Both the position numbers and the translations under genes were made by a program. This document shows, piece after piece, positions 57,538 to 64,000 of a stretch of DNA of 64,000 nt. The notes under the pieces were generated by a model that searched no databases, was not told where the DNA came from, and worked only from the letters and a program-made list of their open reading frames with translations. Location of the stretch: NCBI GenBank assembly GCA_937925685.1, contig CALAMI010000016.1:129001-193000 (forward strand), written 5' to 3'. Source of the stretch: Candidatus Binatia bacterium. GTDB taxonomy: Bacteria; Desulfobacterota; Binatia; HRBIN30. Every line of letters starts with the position of its first letter. Position 1 is the first letter of the stretch.

Positions 57538-58956
57538 TCACGACCTCGCTTCAGCAGCGTCGAAAATTCGGTTCAATCCGTTCAGCGCCGCTACTCGATA
57601 AGCCTCCGCCATCGTCGGGTAGTTGAACGTCGTGTTGACGAAGTAACGCAAGCTATTGGCTGCACCTTTTTGGGAGATGATTGCCTGTCCGATATGAACG
57701 ATTTCCGCTGCTTGATCGCCGAAGCAATGAATCCCGAGTAGTTCCAGTGTCTCCCTGTGGAACAACAGCTTCAGCATACCCACCGTCTGACCGGTGATCT
57801 GCCCTCGGGCAAGGCTGCGAAAGAATGCATGTCCCACTTCGTAGGGCACCTTGGCCGCGGTCAGTTCACGCTCCGTCTTTCCGACCGAGCTAATCTCTGG
57901 AATGGTATATATGCCGGTCGGAATCCATTCGATCAAATGCTCGCAGTGACCATACAGCCAGTGGGCGACAGCGAATCGCCCTTGATCGTAAGCAGCGCTC
58001 GCCAACGCTGGGAACCCTACCACATCGCCGACAGCATAAATATGGGGTACAACCGTTTGGTATTTCTCGTTCACCGGGATGTTGCCTCGAGAATCCACCT
58101 GAATACCCAAGGCTTCCAAACCAAGGCCGTCGGTATTCCCCGTGCGCCCATTGGCCCAAAGTAAAATGTCGGTCTTGAGCTTCTTTCCCGACTTGAGGTG
58201 CAAAACCACCCCGTCGTTCTGTCCCTCCACCCGCTCGTATTCCTCATTGTGGCGGATCAAAGCGCCCTGTTCCCGCAAATGGTAAGCCAGCGCATCAATG
58301 ATCTCATCGTCCAAGAACTCGAGAAGCTTGCTTCGCGTATTCACTAAATTCAGTTTTACGCCGAGGTTGCGAAAGATGGATGCGTACTCGCAGCCCACCA
58401 CCCCGGCTCCATAGATCGTTACCGACTGGGGCATTTCCTGCAGGCCGAGTATGGTCTGCGCATCGAAGATTCTCGGGTGAGAAAAATCCACATCCGGGGG
58501 ACGGTAAGGCCGGGAGCCCACCGCAATCACGAATGCCTTAGCGACAAGTCGCTCCCGCGCCCCGCGTTCGCCTTCGATTTCTACGGTGTGAGCGTCAACG
58601 AATCGTGCGCTTCCTTGCACGACCCGCACGTGATTGCGCTCGTAAAATGACTCCCGCAATGCCACCTGTTTTTGAATCGCTTCCTGTGCCGACCGCAACA
58701 GTTGGGGAAAGGTGACGCGTGGCGGCTTGAAACCGAGATTGCGCCAAAGCGGGCTCGAGCTGCATTCCATCCACTGCCGCACCGCGTACCGCAAGGCCTT
58801 GCTTGGAATCGTGCTCCAGTGCGTGCAACTGCCCCCGACCGCGCGATACCTCTCAACCACGGCGACGCGCCTACCTGCTTTGGCTGCACGCATTGCCGCG
58901 CCTTCGCCGCCAGGTCCACTGCCGATGACGCAAAGGTCTACACGTTCCTCCGCCAT
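57538..58956 (-). CDS. sthA: Soluble (Si-specific) NAD(P)+ transhydrogenase
   Basis: FAD-dependent pyridine nucleotide-disulfide oxidoreductase family, 472 residues. [16 protein letters not shown] binds FAD; the redox pair is replaced, [16 protein letters not shown] (Cys44, Thr49), which is the SthA hallmark. [15 protein letters not shown] binds the nucleotide, and [12 protein letters not shown] the FAD ribityl. Transfers hydride between NADPH and NAD+. Its position among fatty-acyl and oxygenase genes suggests balancing of NADPH/NADH in catabolism. Confidence 0.93.
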
Positions 58957-58978: not shown

Positions 58979-59791
58979 TCAATGAGTGTCCCAAACCAGT
59001 CGCCCGCTGCTTGGCTCCTCGTCGAGCAAGAACATGGGGCAACGTTTTTCGATGTGACCGATCAAGCCATTGTACACACTGTATCCCACGAGTTCACGGA
59101 GTCTCCGGCTAAACCTGCAAGCCGTCTCGCGGGGGATACCCAACTGCTGGTTTTCTTGCTGCCGGATAAATCCTGCACAGTAGTTCATCGCAATGCCAAT
59201 CCGGCGCTCGCAGCTACGGTTTGCCCCGCCGCCATGCCACAAACTACCGTGCCATACCAACACACTGCCCTTGGGCATTTCGGCGGCGATCATGTCGTAC
59301 TGTTCTCCGATCACGGGGTGGCTATCGAAGCGGTGAGACCCAGGAACGAGGCGAGTAGCTCCATTTTCCCCTGTGAAGTCAGTCAAAGCCCACATGGTGT
59401 TACAGACAACCGGCAGGTGGGGTCGTGGGATGGGGATCAATTGATCATCCGCGTGAACTGGTTGCGCACGCTCGCCCGGGCAAATAGCAACGGACGACAA
59501 CGAAGACACAAGACAGCCCGTGTCGAGCACCCGTTCTACTAAAGGCAGTACATTTTCGTGCACCGGTATGCACTCATACAACGCGCCGTGCGCGAGCAAG
59601 TTATAAATGCGCACGGTTTTCGTGCCCTCGAACAGGTTTTTCGCTGGTTTGATGTTGTGCTCCCTTTCGAGGCGGTAAAGATCAGCAACGAGCGCGTCGA
59701 TCAGTTCTGGCTCGATCACGCGCTCGAGAATCGTGTACCCGTCCTGCTTGATCTGTCGCACATGTACCCGAAGCTGCTCCTCGGTCAGCAT
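58979..59791 (-). CDS. Phytanoyl-CoA dioxygenase (PhyH) family protein
   Basis: Fe(II)/2-oxoglutarate dioxygenase of 270 residues; the ATG at 59791 has AAGGAGG at ideal distance. Fe ligands PVHADDQ (His113, Asp115) and LWHGGGANRS (His186), with Arg192 as 2OG ligand; GATRLVPGSHRF is the typical PhyH block. Could alpha-hydroxylate a branched acyl-CoA, fitting its neighbours, but PhyH proteins have many substrates. 22 bp upstream of sthA. Confidence 0.9.
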   Translation of the reverse strand: MLTEEQLRVHVRQIKQDGYTILERVIEPELIDALVADLYRLEREHNIKPAKNLFEGTKTVRIYNLLAHGALYECIPVHENVLPLVERVLDTGCLVSSLSSVAICPGERAQPVHADDQLIPIPRPHLPVVCNTMWALTDFTGENGATRLVPGSHRFDSHPVIGEQYDMIAAEMPKGSVLVWHGSLWHGGGANRSCERRIGIAMNYCAGFIRQQENQQLGIPRETACRFSRRLRELVGYSVYNGLIGHIEKRCPMFLLDEEPSSGRLVWDTH

Positions 59792-59838: not shown

Positions 59839-59958
59839 TTATTTCTTCATCTCCATCTCCACACCACAGCACTTTAGGGTGCCGGAGCCACCTTTGGTCA
59901 CGATGACTTGCGCACCGCACTTGGAGCACTGGTACATTTTCCCGATTTGATTGGTCAT
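59839..59958 (-). CDS. Desulforedoxin-like mini iron protein (39 aa)
   Basis: Complete 39-residue protein beginning MTNQIGKMYQCSKCG, with CSKC at 11-14 and KCCG at 29-32. CxxC followed by CC is the desulforedoxin pattern, which binds one Fe in a rubredoxin-like FeS4 site as a homodimer. GGAGGAGGCG stands directly before the ATG at 59958. It lies between a crotonase-like and the PhyH gene. A paralogue sits at 63191-63337. An electron-transfer or iron-delivery role is inferred. Confidence 0.85.
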   Translation of the reverse strand: MTNQIGKMYQCSKCGAQVIVTKGGSGTLKCCGVEMEMKK

Positions 59959-60002
59959 CGCCTCCTCCGAAAACTTCAACTCCCATTTGGAATCACAGTT
60001 CC

Positions 60003-60764
60003 TCAACGCCCGCGAAAACGTGCCACCGTTTTCTGGCGAAACGCTTCGACTCCCGAGCGCCAATCTGTGGTCGTTTGCAACAAGACATAAAGGTCCTCTT
60101 CTAAACGCATTCCTTGGTTCAAGGTGGTATCTAGCCCTTGGAGAACTGCTTCTTTCGCGTAACCCAATGCAATGGGGGCCCGTTGCGTCAAAAGGTGGGC
60201 GTAGTGCTTCGCCTGCCGACTCAGAGTTCGCCGGGGATATATTCCATTGATCAATCCCCAACGCAGCGCTTCGCGCGCCGACACCCGGCGGCCCGTCCAA
60301 AGCATATCCAAAGCCCGCATCCGCCCCACCAGACGCGGCAACCGCTGTGTCGCACCGTTTCGCGGAAAACGCCCCAGCGCAATTTGGGGCAAGGCAAAGT
60401 GGGTCCGTTCGGAGGCAAACCTCAAATCGCACGCCAAAGCCAACTCGAGCCCCTCGGCGACAGCAGCACCGTCAACAACCGCAATGACGGGGCAGCTCAC
60501 TTGCGCCAGTGCCTCGATTGACCGAAGCCGCCACGGCTCACTCTCTCCCACAGCAATCCCAAGGCAAAACGGAGGTCTCCCTGAGCGAAGCAGAGCCACA
60601 CGGACGGAATCGTCGAAGGCGATCTCCTCGATCGCGCGGCAAAGTTGGGAATCGCCCGTGGCGTCAATGTAGCCTTTGGTGGTCTCGTGATGAACGGTCA
60701 GAATGGCAATCGGTCCCTTGCGCTCGATTTCCACTGGCCAAAGCTTAGTGGCTTTGTGCTTCAT
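60003..60764 (-). CDS. Crotonase-like protein lacking the hydratase Glu
   Basis: Enoyl-CoA hydratase/isomerase fold, 253 residues from the ATG at 60764. The oxyanion segments are PPFCLGIAVG and AAVAEGLELALACDLRFA. The usual PEI-x-LG-PGxGGTQRL segment reads LPQIALGRFPRNGATQRL: the first catalytic Glu is Gln, the Gly-rich loop is altered, and the second Glu is Asp (RALDMLWTG). It is unlikely to be a normal hydratase. Lies between the acyl-CoA ligase and a mini desulforedoxin gene, all on one strand. Confidence 0.85.
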   Translation of the reverse strand: MKHKATKLWPVEIERKGPIAILTVHHETTKGYIDATGDSQLCRAIEEIAFDDSVRVALLRSGRPPFCLGIAVGESEPWRLRSIEALAQVSCPVIAVVDGAAVAEGLELALACDLRFASERTHFALPQIALGRFPRNGATQRLPRLVGRMRALDMLWTGRRVSAREALRWGLINGIYPRRTLSRQAKHYAHLLTQRAPIALGYAKEAVLQGLDTTLNQGMRLEEDLYVLLQTTTDWRSGVEAFRQKTVARFRGR

Positions 60765-60823
60765 TCCGCTCGCTTGCCGTTCTGTGCCATTTGCCGCACC
60801 GCTCCGCGCATGCGTATCGTCCC

Positions 60824-62404
60824 TCAACCTGCAGAGCTGGCCGAGCTGACCTCGCCCCGTTCCCACCGCTCGCGGAGTTCTCGCCGCAGCACCTTACCGA
60901 GCGGATTTTTGGGCAACTCGGGGACGAAGTAGACAAAGTCCGGCTTCTTGAAGCTGGCCAACCGCTGTCGGCAAAACTCGATGAGTTCCTCACCGGTTAC
61001 CTCGCTGCCATGTCGGCGCACGACAAATGCGGCCACTCGTTGTCCCCATTCGATGTCGGGGACGCCGATAACCGCAACATCCTCCACCCCGGGATGCGAG
61101 AACAACGTGCTTTCCACCTCAGCCGGAGCGATGTTTTCCCCGCCGCGGATAATCATGTCGTCCTTGCGCCCAGCCAAAAAAATGTAGCCCTCTTCGTCGA
61201 TCCAACCCATGTCCCGCGTTGGCAACCAACCACCAGGCCGCAGAGGCGACTCAATACCCGCCCTCGTTCGGTACCCTTTCATCACCCGCGGGGTGCGCAC
61301 CCAAAGCTCGCCAACCTCGCCGCGCGGCAGCTCTCGTCCGTCCTCGTCGACAACGATGACCTCCACGTCGGGCAGGGGCCTCCCGATGGATCGCAAGCGG
61401 CGCAGCTTAATCTCGTCGAGCGCGGGAACGCCGCGGAGCCGGTGGTCTTCAGGACCAAGGATGGTCAGAGTAGATGTAGTTTCCGTTTGACCAAAGGCGT
61501 TGACGAACTCGACCGCTGCGGGAAAGGCCTCGATGGCTCGGCGGATCACGGGAAACGGCATCGGCGCTCCTCCATAAGAAAGGGTTCGTAAGCTGGACAA
61601 GTCACGGTGGGCGAAATCGGGGTGGTCGAGGATCTGCTTGAGCATCGTCGGGACAACGAACGCATGGGTAACTCGCTCGCGCTCCACCGCTTCAAGCCAG
61701 GTTGCTGCTTCGAACTGGGGAAGCAAAATCATCCGCCGGCCAGTCCATACATTGCTCATGATGCTCGTGGCACCAGCGATATGGTACAGCGGAACGCAAA
61801 CCAGGGCCGTCCCCCGCGGTGACCCATCGGCCAGTTCCACGTTGCTGGTCACGTAGTGGGTAAAGTCACCGTGCGTGAGTAGCACCGCTTTCGGTTCCGC
61901 CGTGGTACCGCTGGTGTACATGAAAATTGCCGTGTCCTCGTCGTCCACGGCCACCGGTTCGTCAAGCACGCCGTTGCTCAGAAGATCCTCGTAATGGAAC
62001 TCGGAAGAGCCCCTCAGCCCCAAAGCCACGACCTTAAGCTCCTTCTCCAATTCTGGCAGCAAGCTCTTCACGGTTGTCAGGTAACGCTCGCCCACGGCGA
62101 GTACGCGAACCCCGGCACTGGCAATCATAAACCGCAGTTCCGGAAGCTTGGCACGGTAGTTTAGGGGTAAGAAGACCCCGCCCACGAATACCGTGGCATA
62201 GTACATGGCCACGTAGCGATCGGAGTTCGTATCCAGTACCGCCACGCAGTCCCCTGACCCCACACCGAGCCATCGTAAACCGCCGGCTAACCGTCGCACT
62301 TCATTCCATAGCTCGCCATACGACCACGTGCGGTTCTGAAACCGCAGGATCTCGTTTTCCGCAAACAGCGAGGCCGGAATCGATAGAAAATTTGTCGCAT
62401 TCAT
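60824..62404 (-). CDS. AMP-dependent acyl-CoA synthetase (ANL family)
   Basis: Adenylate-forming ligase, 526 residues; the ATG at 62404 overlaps the crotonase stop (ATGA). P-loop MYTSGTTAEPKAVLLTH, YGGAPMP, GQTETTSTL, TRDMGWIDEEGYIFLAGR, IIRGGENIAPAEVE and catalytic Lys in PKNPLGKVLRREL are intact. Activates a carboxylic acid as the acyl-CoA; chain type unclear. Coupled to the upstream crotonase and followed by another, so a beta-oxidation-type segment is likely. Confidence 0.93.
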   Translation of the reverse strand: MNATNFLSIPASLFAENEILRFQNRTWSYGELWNEVRRLAGGLRWLGVGSGDCVAVLDTNSDRYVAMYYATVFVGGVFLPLNYRAKLPELRFMIASAGVRVLAVGERYLTTVKSLLPELEKELKVVALGLRGSSEFHYEDLLSNGVLDEPVAVDDEDTAIFMYTSGTTAEPKAVLLTHGDFTHYVTSNVELADGSPRGTALVCVPLYHIAGATSIMSNVWTGRRMILLPQFEAATWLEAVERERVTHAFVVPTMLKQILDHPDFAHRDLSSLRTLSYGGAPMPFPVIRRAIEAFPAAVEFVNAFGQTETTSTLTILGPEDHRLRGVPALDEIKLRRLRSIGRPLPDVEVIVVDEDGRELPRGEVGELWVRTPRVMKGYRTRAGIESPLRPGGWLPTRDMGWIDEEGYIFLAGRKDDMIIRGGENIAPAEVESTLFSHPGVEDVAVIGVPDIEWGQRVAAFVVRRHGSEVTGEELIEFCRQRLASFKKPDFVYFVPELPKNPLGKVLRRELRERWERGEVSSASSAG

Positions 62405-63183
62405 ACCCCCGCCCTCTCCTCCAGTTGGCGTCGGTCCTCCTTTGCAGCCGCTACACCCGCACGTTGCGCGAGTTTGTGTTCCAGCCAAAGCGCCGAACAA
62501 AGGGCACGTTCTAGCCCTTCCCACACGGCTCGTTTGCTCAACACGAGCAGATTTGGATCCAACGTTGCAAGATGAGTAGCCATCCTCAAGGTCGTTTTTT
62601 CCAGTTGCGCACGCGGAACGACTTTCACCGCCAAGCCCCAGTCGACAGCCTCTCTTGGTGTAATCCAGCGACCGCTCCACAGAACTTCCAGGGCGCGGGC
62701 AGCACCGGCCAAACGCGCCATTGTTTGAGTGCCTCCTACCCCTGGTATGGTGCCTAGACCCGTCTCCGGGAACCGTAACTTGGCATCGTCGCTCACGACA
62801 CAAAGATCGCAGAGCAACGCAAATTCCAGCCCTCCCCCAAGGGCGAATCCATGCACTCCCGCAATCAACGGTTTCGGCAGGCTAGCTATGATTCCGGCCA
62901 CGTCTCGGCGCCACCTCGCAGCACGAGCCGCAACCGGACCGGCCGCCGTACCAAATTCCGTTAGATCGCCACCGGAGCAAAACGAGGGACCGTTGCCAAG
63001 CAGCACAGCCACCCTGACCTCCGGGTCGTCACGTACGGCGGCCAAGGCTTCGTACAAAGAGTCCCGCATTGCCATGTTGTACGCGTTGTGCACCTCAGGC
63101 CGATTAAAGCGCACCACCGCAACGTGGCCGCGCTTCTCGTACATAAGAGGTGGAGACAACTTCTCCGCCTCTCTGCGCAGCAT
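62401..63183 (-). CDS. Enoyl-CoA hydratase
   Basis: 260 residues with the complete hydratase signature: SFCSGGDLTEF and GFALGGGLEFALLCDL oxyanion hole, FPETGLGTIPGVGGTQTM with the first catalytic Glu, ARALEVLWSG with the second. Probably a working enoyl-CoA hydratase. GAGG precedes the ATG at 63183; it starts 7 bp after the mini desulforedoxin gene and overlaps the ligase by 4 bp. Confidence 0.93.
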   Translation of the reverse strand: MLRREAEKLSPPLMYEKRGHVAVVRFNRPEVHNAYNMAMRDSLYEALAAVRDDPEVRVAVLLGNGPSFCSGGDLTEFGTAAGPVAARAARWRRDVAGIIASLPKPLIAGVHGFALGGGLEFALLCDLCVVSDDAKLRFPETGLGTIPGVGGTQTMARLAGAARALEVLWSGRWITPREAVDWGLAVKVVPRAQLEKTTLRMATHLATLDPNLLVLSKRAVWEGLERALCSALWLEHKLAQRAGVAAAKEDRRQLEERAGV

Positions 63184-63190
63184 CGTATCC

Positions 63191-63337
63191 TCAGTCGCTG
63201 GACGGAACTGGCTTCGCTTCCTTCACCTGCAACTCGGATCCACAGCACTCGATCGTTCCGGGCCCAGGCTTGGTACAGAGAATCTCTGTGCCGCATTGTG
63301 CACAGACGTACCGTTTCCCCAACAATGTCGCCATCAT
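63191..63337 (-). CDS. Desulforedoxin-like mini iron protein (48 aa)
   Basis: 48-residue protein beginning MMATLLGKRYVCAQCG; CAQC and ECCG repeat the CxxC...CC desulforedoxin pattern of the gene at 59839-59958, with the same spacing and flanking residues (GxGT between the pairs). An extra Cys (ILCTK) lies between. AAGGAG precedes the ATG at 63337. It starts 29 bp after the ygfZ-like gene and runs straight into the hydratase gene. Confidence 0.85.
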   Translation of the reverse strand: MMATLLGKRYVCAQCGTEILCTKPGPGTIECCGSELQVKEAKPVPSSD

Positions 63338-63366: not shown

Positions 63367-64000
63367 TCAACCAAGGCCAACAGGCACTTGCAAGAACGGG
63401 AACCGCGCTACCTCGATCACTGCTTTTGTTTGCTGCCACCGGGCTTCGAGCACCGTGCCAAATTCCCAAGCCTCACGCCGCACGTACGCAAACCCGATGG
63501 CACGTTGCAACGCCGGAGACCAGACCGCGCTCGTGACCAGGCCCACTTCGCGCTTGTCCGAAAAGAGCTTTGCGCCCGGCTGTGGCGGGGCTCCCTCGCG
63601 ACAAACAAATCCCCTACGCCGACGCTGCACCTGGCCACGGGCCGCTATTCGCTCCACCACCTCTTGTCCCAAGTAGCAGCCCTTGCCGTAAGAGATTGCC
63701 TGTTCGATCTCTGCTTCGGCAATCAAGGTGGACTCGTCCATATCGCGCCCCACTAGCGGAAGTCCAGCTTCTATCCTCAACACGTCGAGGGCAAGCCAAC
63801 CCACAGGCTTCGCCCCACGTTGCGTGGCTTGCTGCCAAAGAAGCTGCAAAGTTTGCGGCCGACCCCAAAATATCCAGCCCTGTTCTCCTGTGTGGGTAAC
63901 AGCGCAAACCCGAAGACGATGGCCGTCGATCCAAAGCTCTTCGTGGGCACCCCAGGGCATGCGGCTCACGCTATTCCCCAGCCAATCGGCAACCAGTGTT
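63367..64000 (-). CDS. Folate-binding YgfZ/GcvT-like protein (partial)
   Basis: The 5' end lies beyond the window: the frame stays open to 64000 (TLVADWLGNS precedes the first internal start), so at least 210 residues are present. The signature KGCYLGQEVVER is the YgfZ motif that binds tetrahydrofolate, and ALDVLRIEAGLPLVGRDMD is the GcvT-family C-terminal block. YgfZ supports repair or assembly of certain Fe-S enzymes, in keeping with neighbouring iron proteins. The stop codon is at 63367. Confidence 0.88.
   Translation of the reverse strand, partial: TLVADWLGNSVSRMPWGAHEELWIDGHRLRVCAVTHTGEQGWIFWGRPQTLQLLWQQATQRGAKPVGWLALDVLRIEAGLPLVGRDMDESTLIAEAEIEQAISYGKGCYLGQEVVERIAARGQVQRRRRGFVCREGAPPQPGAKLFSDKREVGLVTSAVWSPALQRAIGFAYVRREAWEFGTVLEARWQQTKAVIEVARFPFLQVPVGLG

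Follow-up and report, generated by a model that had tools for sequence, protein, structure and literature searches.

Background

Stand-alone desulforedoxin is usually regarded as an electron carrier, and to our knowledge its physiological role has been unclear since its discovery. Here we describe two small genes, Dfx1 and Dfx2, that lie among two crotonase genes (Ech1 and Ech2) and a gene for an AMP-forming acyl-CoA ligase (Lig) in a 64,000-nucleotide stretch of DNA from a Candidatus Binatia bacterium (GenBank assembly GCA_937925685.1, contig CALAMI010000016.1, positions 129,001 to 193,000; 'the window' below). Like the desulforedoxin of Desulfovibrio gigas (Protein Data Bank (PDB) entry 1dxg; Pfam family PF06397), their products are stand-alone proteins in the range of 36-47 amino acids (aa), with the identical cysteine spacing, CxxC-x15-CC, in both and, as modelled for Dfx2, the same fold. 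They differ from it in being two distinct paralogues that occur as a pair, in the extra cysteine and conserved 10-residue C-terminal tail of Dfx2, in having fused, cysteine-poor versions, and in their ties to acyl-CoA enzymes. The genome is a 3.7-Mb draft near Bacterium HR30 (G002), which belongs to the same genus; many of the other named relatives are metagenome-assembled genomes (MAGs) of Candidatus Binatia or Binatota.

The N-terminal domain of desulfoferrodoxin/superoxide reductase is homologous to the Dfx proteins, which end at 39 and 47 aa, lack the superoxide-reductase catalytic domain and reach only 26.9 bits against the dfx_rbo model (cut-off 146.9). LysW, an amino-group carrier, is also a very small protein of the metal-ribbon kind, and its C-terminal end is acidic and conserved; the Dfx proteins score 14.9 and 12.4 bits with the Zn_ribbon_LysW model, below its cut-off of 27, and no LysX-type ligase was seen in the operons read. 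The PaaF-PaaG entry (4fzw) holds two crotonases in one solved structure, and both chains match the Ech models; it has no Dfx-like subunit. Zinc-ribbon OB-fold subunits of the DUF35/PhlB type are also accessory proteins encoded in operons with acyl-CoA enzymes: DUF35 subunits serve in thiolase-type complexes (PMC2954200), and the N-terminal tail of PhlB, the zinc-ribbon subunit in PpATase, is buried within the complex (PMC6392133). The Dfx proteins differ from these in fold class and in their partners, which are crotonases and an acid-activating enzyme; at 39-47 aa they have no OB-fold domain after the zinc ribbon, and they gave no DUF35 match.

Results and discussion

Two desulforedoxin-like genes under purifying selection

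Dfx1 translates as MTNQIGKMYQCSKCGAQVIVTKGGSGTLKCCGVEMEMKK and Dfx2 as MMATLLGKRYVCAQCGTEILCTKPGPGTIECCGSELQVKEAKPVPSSD, both from the minus strand (Table 1); comparison with relatives suggests a 47-aa Dfx2 that starts at 63334. The start codons follow strong Shine-Dalgarno sequences (GGAGGAGGCG-ATG and AAAGGAGAAACG-ATG). The two desulforedoxin-like mini genes and the strong ribosome-binding sites proposed in a preliminary description of the window are both confirmed. Within the genus, the proportion of nonsynonymous differences (pN) in the two genes is 0.04-0.09, against 0.73-0.88 for synonymous differences (pS); when the window and three near relatives are compared, pN is 0.04-0.18 and pS, nearly saturated, is 0.61-0.96. 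A separate cysteine-type Dfx2 is present in 76 of 145 Binatia genomes. Given the low pN relative to pS and this recurrence, the open reading frames are not due to chance; Dfx1 and Dfx2 are real genes under strong purifying selection.

Dfx1 exceeds the gathering cut-off of PF06397 (33.7 bits against 23), and its profile matches the D. gigas desulforedoxin in the PDB with an E value of 2e-5. At 18.4 bits, the window's Dfx2 falls short of the same cut-off, which several Dfx2 proteins of relatives exceed; searching with desulforedoxin hidden Markov models, the check suggested in the preliminary description, thus accepts Dfx1 and leaves the window's Dfx2 outside. An AlphaFold model of Dfx2 (mean predicted local distance difference test score 80.6) shows a predicted desulforedoxin fold: its best match is 1dxg, with a root-mean-square deviation of 0.8 Å, a TM score of 0.90 by target and a Foldseek E value of 0.017 for a 47-aa chain, and desulfoferrodoxins rank next. 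What Dfx2 has beyond Dfx1 is a fifth cysteine and the C-terminal tail. Among 31 Dfx2 sequences from Binatia, Dehalococcoidia and other MAGs, residues L5, G6, K7, R8, Y9, Cys11, Cys14, Leu19, Cys20, Gly24, Cys30, Pro44, Ser45 and Asp47 are invariant. The tail, KEAKPLPSSD, whose final residue immediately precedes the stop codon, shows the strongest conservation of any segment of the protein and is kept across phyla.

A conserved unit with two crotonases and an acid-activating enzyme

The core unit consists of Ech1, Ech2, an acid-activating enzyme, Dfx1 and Dfx2, and its linkage extends well beyond the window genome. The recurrent order in Binatia is GcvT, Dfx2, (Amidohydro_3), Ech2, Lig, Ech1, Dfx1, with the GcvT/YgfZ-like gene a conserved neighbour within Binatia only. 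In other lineages of this phylum the genes are packed into a five-gene operon, Ech1-Ech2-Lig-Dfx1-Dfx2 (L165, L166, L167, L168 and L219), whose gaps, measured at four of these loci, run from -4 to 100 bp. The activating enzyme varies. At two loci (L141 and L149) a 3-oxoacid-type CoA-transferase A/B pair stands in for the ligase, in the order Ech1-Ech2-CoA-transferase A/B-Dfx1-Dfx2, with similar open reading frames in L132, and a CaiB-type transferase lies within the cluster in L164, L166 and L170 and, judged by sequence, in L109. In Dehalococcoidia, Dfx1 and Dfx2 are adjacent to each other at the end of a pyrimidine operon, with folE adjoining; most Dehalococcoidia with the pair carry adjacent Ech1-Ech2 elsewhere, which in several cases a CoA-transferase pair or a ligase follows. 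The preliminary description had considered an undescribed accessory protein and had named a lack of co-occurrence in relatives as an argument against any link. We find instead that the pair co-occurs with orthologous Ech1-Ech2 and an acid-activating enzyme in Binatia, in other lineages of the phylum and in Dehalococcoidia, which supports the accessory-protein idea.

A further measure of association is co-occurrence across genomes. Scores of the Ech2 model were bimodal over 395 genomes of the phylum (19 of at least 329 bits, one of 282 and the others no higher than 249), in a search that scored only a few candidates per genome, so that the counts are approximate. With thresholds chosen after the scores were seen, 17 genomes matched both the Dfx2 and the Ech2 model, one matched Dfx only, two Ech2 only and 375 neither; the corresponding numbers outside Binatia were 8, 1, 1 and 369. 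Fisher p values of 1e-26 for the 395 genomes and 8e-15 outside Binatia are descriptive, as they ignore relatedness. A stronger argument than the p values is the sporadic joint presence in families f22, f24, f25 and f30, in which single genomes have both Dfx and Ech2 while the sampled relatives have neither. Among the exceptions, G021 carries a fused form, described below, and the contig of G190 ends just past Dfx1. In G202, apparently Ech2-only, the residues FPQPKPLPSSD and a stop stand directly after the ligase stop (L214:6771-6805), apparently the leftover of a deleted Dfx1-Dfx2 pair or else an assembly join. The remnant in G202 and the contig end in G190 indicate that the exceptions are partly artefacts.

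Fused forms that have lost the metal site

In 18 of the 145 Binatia genomes we find, instead of a separate Dfx2, a single protein of about 97-103 aa, one per genome, that joins a Dfx1-like half to a Dfx2-like half. Profile comparison matches the C-terminal half to Dfx2 with 99.5% probability and the N-terminal half to Dfx1 with 97.6%; taken alone, the N-terminal half of the f10 and f13 fusions matches Dfx1 weakly. The fusions have neither four-cysteine site (those of f10 and f13 retain two isolated cysteines in the N-terminal half) but keep LGKRY, the conserved E, L, K and G, and the tail KEAKPLPSSD, with single substitutions in a few. Thus, the tail and fold are conserved more strongly than the metal site, and the loss of the cysteines argues that the metal, and electron transfer with it, is not the conserved function. 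Four Dfx2 proteins in which CC has changed to CH (L142, L145, L148 and L165) point in the same direction.

The fused gene can also take the place of the separate ones. For example, in L152 it stands between GcvT and Ech2, where Dfx2 would otherwise be, and the genome to which this locus belongs (G012) yielded no further Dfx gene. At nearly every locus read in f10, f13 and f7, the neighbour of the fusion is a more distant ligase, and crotonases flank the two at most of these loci (L161, L162, L205, L206, L208 and L209); L204 shows the fusion and ligase, and in L207 the arrangement was not seen. Gene fusion is a classic sign of partner proteins, and this one points naturally to a Dfx1-Dfx2 heterodimer.

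A proposed docking role and its alternatives

The reading that we favour, with confidence that is about even, is that Dfx1 and Dfx2 are a structural or docking (scaffold) component of a module of two crotonases and an acid-activating enzyme, most likely as a heterodimer. The two desulforedoxin-fold subunits would pair, as the gene pairing and the fusion suggest, and their partners would be Ech1 and Ech2 together with an AMP-forming ligase, a 3-oxoacid-type CoA-transferase or a CaiB-type CoA-transferase. The four-cysteine site, holding zinc or iron, would stabilise the tiny fold and would be dispensable; the functional parts would be a conserved face (LGKRY, E17, L19, K22 and G24) and the Dfx2 tail, which, by analogy with PhlB and DUF35, probably dock into the crotonases or the activating enzyme. 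More generally, the chance is about even that these proteins belong to an undescribed family in which a paired desulforedoxin fold has been repurposed as a docking or carrier subunit, with the metal optional, for complexes of crotonases and acid-activating enzymes, KEAKPLPSSD being the working part. The literature searched gave no description of such a module, nor of a desulforedoxin with an enoyl-CoA hydratase or in Binatota.

Contact of the pair with any partner is something that we infer, and several observations weigh against a docking role. In most genomes of f4, f9 and f11 the fused gene stands away from the module, an Ech1 match was not found in 2 of 20 genomes tested (Dehalococcoidia), and the position of the pair beside pyrimidine and folE genes in Dehalococcoidia makes part of the linkage one in trans only. 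Most carriers keep the cysteine sites, so that the metal matters in the majority of species and may have a redox role in them.

The most interesting rival gives the tail a carrier role: Dfx2 or the fusion would act like LysW, bearing an acyl or amino substrate covalently on the tail (at Ser45/Ser46 or the C-terminal Asp) and offering it to the ligase and crotonases. The place of this most conserved segment at the very C terminus, its retention despite cysteine loss, the acid-activating enzyme among the usual partners and a weak zinc-ribbon similarity to LysW would all fit; we nonetheless consider it unlikely, since the LysW scores lie far under the cut-off, the operons read showed no ATP-grasp LysX-like ligase, and the partner enzymes belong to CoA-dependent families, which need no protein carrier. 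It is distinctly unlikely, too, that the pair is a redox or metal sensor in which the FeS4 or zinc site, together with Cys20, senses the redox state and so controls the acyl-CoA enzymes. Although the four metal cysteines are conserved in most carriers, and Cys20, invariant in the 31 Dfx2 sequences, persists in the f10 and f13 fusions without a metal site, Cys20 is lost in the fusions of f4, f9 and f11, and the CC to CH changes fit a structural metal better than redox iron.

The preliminary description had proposed that the proteins may supply electrons or iron to the oxygenases, an idea that the desulforedoxin fold and the adjoining PhyH gene in the window both favour. PhyH, however, is lineage-limited and is broken or replaced in HR30, the conserved set contains no oxygenase, and cysteine-poor homologues exist, 18 Binatia genomes having lost both four-cysteine sites; the idea is largely refuted by these fusions and now seems very unlikely. 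That the proteins are small regulatory zinc ribbons that bind nucleic acid and control the operon is most improbable: zinc ribbons are often nucleic-acid binders and Dfx1 is basic (net charge +4), but Dfx2 is neutral, one fusion is acidic (net -5), and the pair in Dehalococcoidia is not adjacent to the module. We give hardly any credence to the genes being passengers, in a neighbourhood retained by common descent only. Apparently vertical inheritance of the pair at the end of the pyr operon in Dehalococcoidia would agree with this, but the presence within f22, f24, f25 and f30 is sporadic and yet joint, gene orders and activating enzymes differ, the genes co-occur in trans, and a divergent module retains the link.

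Locus layout and neighbouring genes

The genes of the window form one minus-strand run: GcvT/YgfZ-like, 29-32 bp, Dfx2, 7 bp, Ech2, a 4-bp overlap, Lig, 59 bp, Ech1, 44 bp, Dfx1, 47 bp, PhyH, 22 bp and SthA (Table 1). The preliminary description was right about the two spacings it gave, 44 bp from Ech1 to Dfx1 and 7 bp from Dfx2 to Ech2. It had also placed the genes in one run with the acyl-CoA ligase and PhyH; this is so in the window, where the run takes in SthA downstream and the GcvT/YgfZ-like gene upstream as well, but PhyH proves to be only a local passenger.

Table 1. Genes of the run that contains Dfx1 and Dfx2, in window coordinates
Feature	Coordinates	Strand	Description
SthA-like NAD(P) transhydrogenase	57538..58956	-	PRK05249, 709 bits; lineage-specific passenger
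PhyH-family dioxygenase	58979..59791	-	Lineage-specific passenger
Dfx1	59839..59958	-	39-aa desulforedoxin-like protein, CxxC-x15-CC; PF06397 33.7 bits, PDB profile match, strong Shine-Dalgarno sequence, low pN/pS
Ech1	60003..60764	-	Crotonase; second catalytic Glu replaced by Gln (LPQ)
Lig	60824..62404	-	AMP-forming acyl-CoA ligase (ANL superfamily); AMP-binding and AMP-binding_C domains
Ech2	62401..63183	-	Crotonase, hydratase type; Pfam ECH_1; both catalytic Glu retained (E in GGGLE and PET)
Dfx2	63191..63337	-	47/48-aa desulforedoxin-like protein; fifth Cys (Cys20); conserved C-terminal tail KEAKPVPSSD
GcvT/YgfZ-like gene	63367..64000, runs past window end	-	GCV_T domains; TIGR03317 (YgfZ) above cut-off

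Glutamine occupies the second catalytic position in nearly all aligned Ech1 orthologues, and Ech2 keeps both glutamates, which suggests two different crotonase activities. The solved structures nearest to Lig are feruloyl/fatty acyl-CoA synthetases. In most of the Binatia operons read, Dfx2 and Ech2 are separated by an Amidohydro_3 protein of about 520 aa (L040:7236-8828 and equivalents), which is missing from the operon of the window and its closest relatives.

Counting the window, only four of the sampled relatives have PhyH at the locus; the gene is intact in the window and in two f1 relatives among those sampled, and the other operons read lack it. In HR30 it is only about 40% identical and lies in two separate pieces (L033:7823-8537), being broken, replaced or fast-evolving, although SthA, the next gene there, is 94% identical. 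SthA itself was next to the operon in the window and in three f1 relatives among those sampled, and in no others. Because neither PhyH nor SthA adjoins the operon outside the window's family, both are outside the conserved unit, and we rejected a functional link to either as lineage-specific. Two pathway assignments were also rejected. The steroid C/D-ring HIP pathway (IpdAB/EchA20/IpdC) was considered for the crotonase, CoA-transferase and nitronate-monooxygenase neighbours; the transferase is SCOT-like (that of L149 scores 161-164 bits to 3-oxoacid (SCOT) chains against 43 to 6coj, and is not of the IpdAB type) and the monooxygenase is FabK-like. Dimethylsulfoniopropionate demethylation, with a DmdA-like GcvT, fails because TIGR03317 identifies the GcvT-like gene as YgfZ and because this gene adjoins the module in Binatia alone.

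Other genes lie near the module. In L166 (10319-14130), a CaiB-type CoA-transferase and two subunits of the 2-hydroxyacyl-CoA dehydratase type (HGD-D) come before the five-gene operon, a possible clue to the substrate. A flavoprotein resembling FabK/nitronate monooxygenase recurs next to the five-gene module at L165:7456-8427, L171:5788-6744 and L219:6191-7201. In some genomes reached via Chloroflexi-type loci, Ech1 and Ech2 are separated by a short protein with a PHP_C domain (L199:7061-7657, L200:8907-9449 and L201:346-915). Two MAG records titled Klebsiella pneumoniae (L097 and L100) contain Binatia DNA and are apparently mislabelled public records.

Conclusions

If the docking role of Dfx1 and Dfx2 is true, stand-alone desulforedoxin-like proteins would gain a functional context other than electron transfer, in a two-gene version that is inherited with a defined set of enzymes. 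Natural cysteine-poor fusions uncouple fold and tail from the metal site, which makes the role directly testable. The genes also draw attention to an uncharacterised acyl-CoA module that occurs in Binatia, in further lineages of their phylum and in Dehalococcoidia, nearly all of its carriers here being MAGs, and small zinc-ribbon open reading frames near crotonases, easily overlooked in annotation, can be genuine parts of such a system.

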